From Paenibacillus sp. MBLB1832 (lineage in GTDB: Bacteria > Bacillota > Bacilli > Paenibacillales > NBRC-103111): a stretch of 64,000 bases of DNA. A program made the translations under genes and the position numbers. Within the stretch, counting starts at the first letter, position 1, and the number at the start of each line of letters is the position of its first letter. This document shows positions 44,965 to 46,693 of the stretch, in pieces. The stretch lies in the NCBI RefSeq assembly GCF_032271945.1, contig NZ_CP130319.1:1569001-1633000 (forward strand), in the 5' to 3' direction. A model generated the notes under the pieces. It saw nothing but the letters and a program-made list of their open reading frames with translations. It did not search any database and was not told the DNA's origin.

Positions 44965-45045
44965 CGTTTACGGGTTAATTTGGGCGTGTTGTACACATAC
45001 TGAATGAGCGCAAGTTCGAAGTCACATGACAGAGGTGGAGGCAGC

Positions 45046-46125
45046 ATGGAACGATTATGGAACAATAAATGGTTTGTAGGACTCATCTACGCGTTATTCA
45101 TCTTAATTGGTCTTTATTTGCTAATCCTGATCAAACCAATTCTCAGTTATGTGTTTACATTTATCAAAGCGATTGCAATGCCATTTTTTATTGCGATCAT
45201 TATCTCCTATATATTGAATCCGGTCGTAAACATTCTGAATAAGCGCAAAATGCCAAGAACGATTGCGGTGCTGCTGATATACAGCGTGTTCATTACATCC
45301 ATTACGGTTATTATCATGAATATGACACCGATGTTTGTGCAGCAAGCTGCTGAGCTAAATGAACATATGCCGGAGATGGCAATGAAGGCACAATCCTTCG
45401 TCGATGGGTTCAATCAAAATCAAATGCTGCCAGACAGCGTACGGAACGGGTTTAACCATTCGCTTAACAAACTAGAATCCCGTATCTCGATGACTATTGC
45501 GAACTATATGAATCAGATTGGCGCAACGATTAATATGCTGTTTATTGCGTTTATCGTACCGTTTCTTGCTTTTTATATTTTAAAAGATTTTCAAATTATT
45601 GAGAAAACCGCGCTGGCCATCGTACCGCGAGAACATCGCAAAAAAACCGTCTCTCTGCTCATGGATATCGACACGGCGCTAGGTAACTATATCCGAGGAC
45701 AGCTCCTCGTTTGTGTCATTATCGGTGTCCTTGCCTACGTTGGCTACTGGCTAATTGGTATGCCTTATCCGCTGCTGCTCGCAAGCGTTGTCGCGATTTT
45801 CAATATCATCCCGTATATGGGTCCGTTTTTTGGCGCGGCGCCGGCAATTTTAATGGCTTCAACTGTCTCTTTGAAAATGGTGGTGCTCGTCGCGCTAATC
45901 AATTTGGCCGTGCAAATTTTGGAGGGCAATGTCATTTCTCCGCAGGTGGTGGGGAGAACACTGCATATGCATCCGTTATTTATCATTTTTGCGTTACTGG
46001 TGGGTGGAGAAGTTGCTGGCGTCGTGGGTTTGATCTTGGCAGTGCCTTTCTTTGCCGTGCTGAAGGTCATCATTCAGCATGTGTTTATTCATTTTGTTCA
46101 TAAGACAACGGCTGAGCCCAATTGA
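45046..46125 (+). CDS. AI-2E family transporter (YrrI-like)
   Basis: A 359-residue membrane protein with about eight helices. It has the family landmarks IISYILNPVVNILNKRKMPR, VPFLAFYILKDF, GYWLIGMPYPLLLA and IPYMGPFFGAAPA. Members export the AI-2 signal or act as Na+/H+ antiporters; the substrate cannot be read here. B. subtilis yrrI lies immediately before alaS, as here. ATG 45046 follows GGAGG by five bases; an in-frame ATG at 45004 has no site. Confidence 0.88.
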   Translation: MERLWNNKWFVGLIYALFILIGLYLLILIKPILSYVFTFIKAIAMPFFIAIIISYILNPVVNILNKRKMPRTIAVLLIYSVFITSITVIIMNMTPMFVQQAAELNEHMPEMAMKAQSFVDGFNQNQMLPDSVRNGFNHSLNKLESRISMTIANYMNQIGATINMLFIAFIVPFLAFYILKDFQIIEKTALAIVPREHRKKTVSLLMDIDTALGNYIRGQLLVCVIIGVLAYVGYWLIGMPYPLLLASVVAIFNIIPYMGPFFGAAPAILMASTVSLKMVVLVALINLAVQILEGNVISPQVVGRTLHMHPLFIIFALLVGGEVAGVVGLILAVPFFAVLKVIIQHVFIHFVHKTTAEPN

Positions 46126-46138
46126 CAGGCAGACGCAC

Positions 46139-46186
46139 AAAACCCCTTCGAACCATGACTTGCGGGATCATGGATCAAGGGGTTTT
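46139..46186. terminator. Bidirectional hairpin between the AI-2E gene and the Fur-box promoter
   Basis: AAAACCCCTT pairs with AAGGGGTTTT, enclosing a CATGA/TCATG inner stem. Each strand ends in four T, so it can stop the AI-2E transcript and the opposing minus-strand transcript. Confidence 0.75.
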
Positions 46187-46299
46187 GCACGAGGGTTGAG
46201 GAGTTTGAAAGGTTGTGGCCCATACGTAAACCAATCATGGACTACGGAATAAGTGATTAAATAACAAGCTGTCCATTTAAGTTCGATAATGAAAATCAT
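46168..46299 (-). CDS. Possible small protein in a Fur-controlled transcript
   Basis: A 43-codon frame beginning MIFIIELKWTACYLITYSVV and rich in Trp, Tyr and Pro. Its stop is inside the bidirectional hairpin. The ATG is only about seven bases after the predicted transcription start and has no ribosome site, so translation would have to be leaderless or start elsewhere; an in-frame ATG upstream would add 12 residues but precedes the predicted start. I recognise no family. The transcript could equally be a non-coding RNA. Confidence 0.3.
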   Translation of the reverse strand: MIFIIELKWTACYLITYSVVHDWFTYGPQPFKLLNPRAKPLDP

Positions 46300-46341
46300 T
46301 ATCAATAATTTGAGTATACTTATGTTGAGAATCATTGTCAA
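46285..46341 (-). promoter_or_regulatory. Minus-strand promoter with two Fur-box-like operators
   Basis: Reading the minus strand, TTGACA (46341-46336) and TATACT (46318-46313) are exactly 17 bp apart. A near-perfect Fur box, GATAATGAAAATCATTATC, lies at 46285-46303 (one mismatch to the 19-bp consensus), just past the predicted start. A second, weaker match (about 14 of 19) at 46321-46339 fills the spacer and overlaps the -35. This is the arrangement of an iron-repressed promoter. No iron gene lies downstream. Confidence 0.65.
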
Positions 46342-46398: not shown

Positions 46399-46693
46399 TA
46401 TCTATAGCTGAATGAATGAAAGCGTTGATGAAACTTAGTAAGCCATAACCCATCGTCAGAGAGAAGGTTCCGCTTGGCAGCAAAGTGCTGTGAGGATCGG
46501 CTGGAAGAACCTTTCGGTGTTAGGATGGCCCAAAGCTCGTTTCGGAGTGTGGATGAACTCCACCGGTTGGACCCGTTACAGATCCGCACAAGGAGATTGG
46601 ATTCGCCCTAAGCTGACCGCTGGGGAGTACGAATGCAATAACCAGGGTGGTACCGCGATGATTCGTCCCTGTTCAATACAGGGGCGTTTTTTG
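46399..46693 (+). promoter_or_regulatory. T-box riboswitch of alaS
   Basis: A T-box leader. AGTA is near 46438, the terminal loop GGCTGGAAG at 46499-46507, the T-box sequence AGGGTGGTACCGCG at 46644-46657, and a terminator (CGTCCCTG...CAGGGGCG, then six T) at 46664-46692. A CCATC/GATGG helix leaves an internal loop with CCCAAAGCTC, so the specifier is probably GCT (46535-46537), an Ala codon, fitting alaS. Confidence 0.88.

Follow-up and report, generated by a model that had tools for sequence, protein, structure and literature searches.

The intergenic region between alaS and an AI-2E family permease gene of Paenibacillus sp. MBLB1832 likely harbors a conserved, previously uncatalogued Fur-repressed gene for a trans-acting small RNA (sRNA) that would pair with ribosome-binding sites and spare iron. 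Positions below refer to the window, the 64,000-nucleotide stretch that was analyzed. Conservation, covariation and shortened relatives in four other genera strongly support a Fur-controlled, noncoding minus-strand sRNA with C-rich single-stranded stretches, and this RNA probably silences selected mRNAs upon iron shortage, by analogy with FsrA in Bacillus subtilis. In the mechanism that we propose, Fur-Fe2+ would occupy two boxes over the -35 and the start site when iron is ample and keep the promoter off. When iron is short, the cell would produce an RNA of ~170 nt. Pairing of its exposed C-rich stretch (core CCUCAA-CCUC) with ribosome-binding sites rich in G would then block the translation of particular mRNAs and thus spare iron.

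Promoter, Fur boxes and neighboring genes

A promoter scan located TTGACA-17-TATACT on the minus strand (46341-46313), with 11 of 12 hexamer matches, as claimed in the preliminary description of this locus. The -35 hexamer TTGACA (46336-46341) is kept in 30 of 30 genus genomes, the -10 hexamer TATACT (46313-46318) reads TATACT or TATAAT in nearly all relatives, and the promoter ranks second in the region, the best one being that of alaS. Two Fur boxes accompany it. Box 1 (GATAATGAAAATCATTATCA, 46285-46304) lies at the predicted transcription start; the near-perfect match described there (46285-46303) indeed has a single mismatch to the classical 19-mer GATAATGATAATCATTATC, and this is the sole place within the 64 kb with such a match (chance 0.01). 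The weaker box described over the spacer and the -35 was also recovered, and we place it at 46326-46340 as a 7-1-7 motif, TGAGAATCATTGTCA, that spans the -35 together with a portion of the spacer and differs by one base from TGAGAATNATTCTCA.

At the scale of the genome (5.85 Mb), TGANAATNATTNTCA occurs at nine places, two of them at the sRNA promoter, compared to none for a reversed control pattern. The assignable sites elsewhere are mostly beside iron-uptake genes; the neighbors are a divergent FecCD permease/siderophore-binding protein pair and genes for an FTR1 iron permease, a PepSY_TM protein and a DUF1450 protein. Since these sites are few and, where assignable, mostly beside iron genes, this motif most likely serves as the operator for Fur in this Paenibacillus, the genome of which encodes three Fur-family regulators. 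Taken together, sequence and conservation designate the sRNA promoter as putatively Fur-controlled. Three further exact boxes (L233, L234 and L236) have no evident adjoining iron gene, one of them preceding a LacI-type regulator, and could conceal more small genes.

The predicted RNA is flanked by two plus-strand features: the convergent AI-2E family permease gene (45004-46125) and, on the divergent side, the T-box leader of alaS (46416-46673; Rfam model). The leader scores 68 bits, under the Rfam gathering score of 93, and was therefore missed by the default window scan. The -35 of the divergent alaS promoter (46364) is only 22 bp from that of the sRNA (46341), and Fur on box 2 might touch alaS too in this species. 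Such proximity could suggest that the alaS promoter is the main object of Fur control and that the minus-strand RNA is incidental. We consider this very unlikely, since many relatives have a gene for a small membrane protein in between, yet the boxes and the RNA remain together. This gene (about 60-70 codons, ...SRYNPFDYITGQTRVEFQEQKEQKEE...; for example in L014 and L019) lies between alaS and the RNA and seems to have been lost from upstream of the sRNA promoter in the window genome.

Structure, conservation and strand of the RNA

The predicted RNA of about 170-177 nt extends over 46130-46306 on the minus strand, its start being set 7 nt past the -10 and its end just beyond the 3' hairpin. 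Its computed folding energy is -54.5 kcal/mol (z -5.5). In the predicted transcript, the sequence of Fur box 1 forms a 5' hairpin, followed by an internal hairpin, CGUAG-UCCAU..UUGGU-UUACG (46225-46246, minus strand), conserved according to the consensus fold of RNAalifold and the covariation test. The C-rich stretches previously claimed for this RNA are also present: GGGCCACAACCUUUCAAACUCCUCAACCCUC (46191-46221, minus strand), the presumed mRNA-pairing site, is predicted to be single-stranded and includes UCCUCAACCCUCG, nearly invariant across the genus. Folding, consensus fold and covariation all indicate a 3' hairpin (46135-46190, minus strand) with an invariant loop, UCCCGCAA, and a covarying stem. 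The hairpin described about 170 nt downstream of the promoter is thus confirmed at this position, without the T-rich ends attributed to it, as its 3' side in the window genome, GGGGUUUUGUGCGUCU, is U-poor. Within the genus the hairpin ends in GGGGUUUUGUGCG or GGGGUUCUGUGCG, likewise poor in U, and because of this 3' side it is a mediocre terminator there. It is probably a two-way terminator that serves the AI-2E gene as well. No variation of the loop UCCCGCAA was seen across the 30 genomes, in which the stem covaries, and the loop is absent from the other genera; it may be an additional C-rich site for pairing or a site bound by a protein.

The conservation and covariation that the preliminary description had proposed to look for in related Paenibacillus genomes were both observed. 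A block comprising the promoter, both Fur boxes and ~130 nt of RNA was found in 30 of the 30 genus genomes searched (including P. alginolyticus, P. chondroitinus, P. alba, P. ferrarius and P. pectinilyticus); the same 30 genomes came up in a search with a covariance model for the body of the RNA. Along their alignment, the -35, the -10, both Fur boxes and the hairpin are maintained; inside the transcript, little or no variation affects UCCUCAACCCUCG, the base of the stem and the hairpin loop, and ~75 nt upstream of the 3' hairpin are also conserved. In L006, L010 and L013, Fur box 1 is followed immediately by a shared insert of ~115 bp, which seems to hold its own inverted repeat and would bring the predicted RNA to ~290 nt. 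The RNAalifold consensus consists of the internal hairpin and the long 3' hairpin. When the stems were submitted to a covariation test, 98.5% of stem cells were paired, compared to 25-53% when slid; 22 stem cells had changed on both sides, and none of 500 shuffles reached the observed pairing.

Read as the minus strand, the covarying stems contain 115 G-U cells versus 7 A-C cells. As a G-U pair on one strand is an A-C mismatch on the other, selection acted on the minus-strand RNA, which identifies the minus strand as the RNA strand from the alignment. This count also bears on whether the conserved block could be merely a two-way terminator of the AI-2E gene together with a chance Fur-like sequence. 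The hairpin does lie at the 3' end of that gene, is nearly symmetric and is detected on both strands by the covariance model. However, G-U pairing favors the minus strand, the conservation extends upstream of the hairpin, and two of the nine exact Fur boxes of the genome are found here, with a promoter, in a context kept in 30 genomes; we therefore judge this explanation highly improbable.

The preliminary description had left the choice between a new iron-sparing sRNA and a small-protein gene. Short frames of 13-46 codons do exist in the window RNA, as a Fur-regulated small-protein gene would have, but across the 30 genus genomes neither a reading frame nor its start nor a ribosome site is kept. 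Moreover, the changes in the stems are compensatory, and no common frame was seen among the relatives of other genera, which measure about 75-150 nt. The small-protein alternative thus has very little in its favor, and of the earlier proposal it is the Fur-controlled, noncoding minus-strand sRNA that was retained, on the basis of conservation, covariation and relatives.

Shortened relatives in other genera

With strict filters, the covariance model gave one match beyond the genus (G048, from another genus) and no match in the other 399 sampled genomes of the class. All 105 genomes of the family carry the AI-2E permease gene, and in most other genera nothing resembling the sRNA was found beside it. 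Five genomes of other genera (G051, G044, G045, G073 and G048) carry a Fur-boxed RNA between alaS and the AI-2E gene on the same strand. Among 20 neighborhoods of ~16 kb each, Fur boxes were present only in those five, always between these two genes. The promoter layout of these relatives matches, with TTGACAATGATTCTCA over the -35, a -10 at 17 nt and two boxes, of which the second follows the first by 36-40 nt; the second box is missing from G048 and the first from G051. The RNA bodies read CCCUCAAACCUCAGCAAAAACC in G073, AAUCCCUCAAACCUCAUAAAACCUCAAAC in G045, CCAACCUCAAAACCUCAAG in G044 and AUCCUCAAUCGGUCCUCAGUCCUCAAAAUCCC in G051. They are followed by hairpins with U-tracts in G044, G045 and G051, and by a hairpin with UUUUUGCUUU in G073. 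These compact relatives, identified by position, promoter and short motifs rather than by alignment statistics, combine one or two Fur boxes with CCUC in two or three copies and a hairpin of the terminator type. They suggest that the RNA is at its core a vehicle, repressed by iron, for these CCUC units, CCUC being complementary to the GAGG of Shine-Dalgarno sequences. Two exact-pattern matches, in a Hyphomicrobium and in a Betaproteobacteria MAG, look like chance and do not match the model.

Candidate targets and comparison with known iron-sparing RNAs

We analyzed the duplexes of the sRNA with the gene starts of sdhC, sdhA and aconitase (acnA) in the genus, in comparison with 364 gene starts over 28 genomes. 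The sdhA start region reached a median rank in the top 3%, sdhC 14% and acnA 37%. Dinucleotide-shuffled RNAs matched the real RNA on sdhA in 7-10% of cases. For sdhC and acnA, pairing was no better than with shuffles, which did as well in more than 40% of cases, and these two starts gave no support for a role as targets. The sdhA leader and site are nearly invariant in the genus, so the 28 genomes are not independent. When 365 gene starts from the window and 20 sampled genome stretches were ranked, with the top matches judged by their first residues, no iron-protein cluster was evident apart from sdhA. The best candidate mRNA for pairing is that of succinate dehydrogenase (sdhCAB), at the start of sdhA; given the frequency of equivalent shuffles and a leader that hardly varies, it is a candidate only, and we still infer iron sparing, which is plausible by analogy.

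The same RNA could be Fur-repressed and have targets other than iron-sparing ones (siderophore, stress or envelope mRNAs), or act as a sponge for another RNA. The promoter evidence tells only when the RNA would be made, and iron proteins were not singled out by the target tests. In contrast, the characterized Gram-positive Fur-repressed C-rich sRNAs, FsrA and IsrR, act on iron-protein mRNAs, their C-rich stretches pairing at ribosome-binding sites (PMC9410917, PMC12871923), and we consider the alternative rather unlikely compared to an iron-sparing sRNA.

No Rfam family matched the RNA or two of its relatives at gathering or lax thresholds, the lax-threshold matches being chance eukaryotic or viral models. 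A literature search of incomplete coverage retrieved no report of this RNA, and an iron-responsive small RNA of Paenibacillus was found neither in the literature searched nor in Rfam. Among the transcripts described for P. riograndensis are 27 small RNAs from intergenic regions, the function of most of them being unknown (PMC5670726).

FsrA of B. subtilis is Fur-repressed and noncoding, and pairs through a C-rich single-stranded stretch with Shine-Dalgarno sequences of targets including sdhC and citB (PMC12871923, PMC9410917). The Paenibacillus RNA has likewise a Fur box at its promoter and a C-rich region predicted to be single-stranded. However, the FsrA model (RF02273) matched neither the genome, the RNA nor two relatives, while the B. 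subtilis control was positive; FsrA measures 84 nt and the RNA of this genus is twice as long; FsrA works with FbpA/FbpB/FbpC, whereas a search of this genome gave no member of the FbpB helper family (control positive); and the locus, between alaS and the AI-2E gene, is different. From these sequence comparisons, the sRNA resembles FsrA in design, not in sequence. With IsrR of Staphylococcus, it shares two Fur boxes at the promoter, genus-wide conservation and several C-rich regions (PMC9410917), and IsrR works without an FbpB helper; its published architecture, compared by description, differs in having three stem-loops and a terminator. RyhB and PrrF are also Fur-repressed iron-sparing RNAs, but they are Hfq-dependent and proteobacterial, and the Paenibacillus RNA has no Rfam match. 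If our inference is right, the sRNA would work like FsrA and IsrR.

Overall, as a concrete conserved gene, this locus gives a handle on whether these bacteria spare iron in response to its shortage, and it bears on the question of whether RNAs of this type evolve again and again as simple units made of a Fur box, CCUC and a terminator. It is reasonably probable that it represents a new sRNA family at the alaS/AI-2E locus of the Paenibacillus-related family (at least five genera), in which a promoter with two Fur boxes is combined with two or three CCUC units of anti-Shine-Dalgarno type and a terminator, and to which one genus has added further conserved hairpins with the fixed UCCCGCAA loop. 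It would then add to FsrA and IsrR another iron-sparing RNA of Gram-positive bacteria, FbpB-independent and of independent evolutionary origin.
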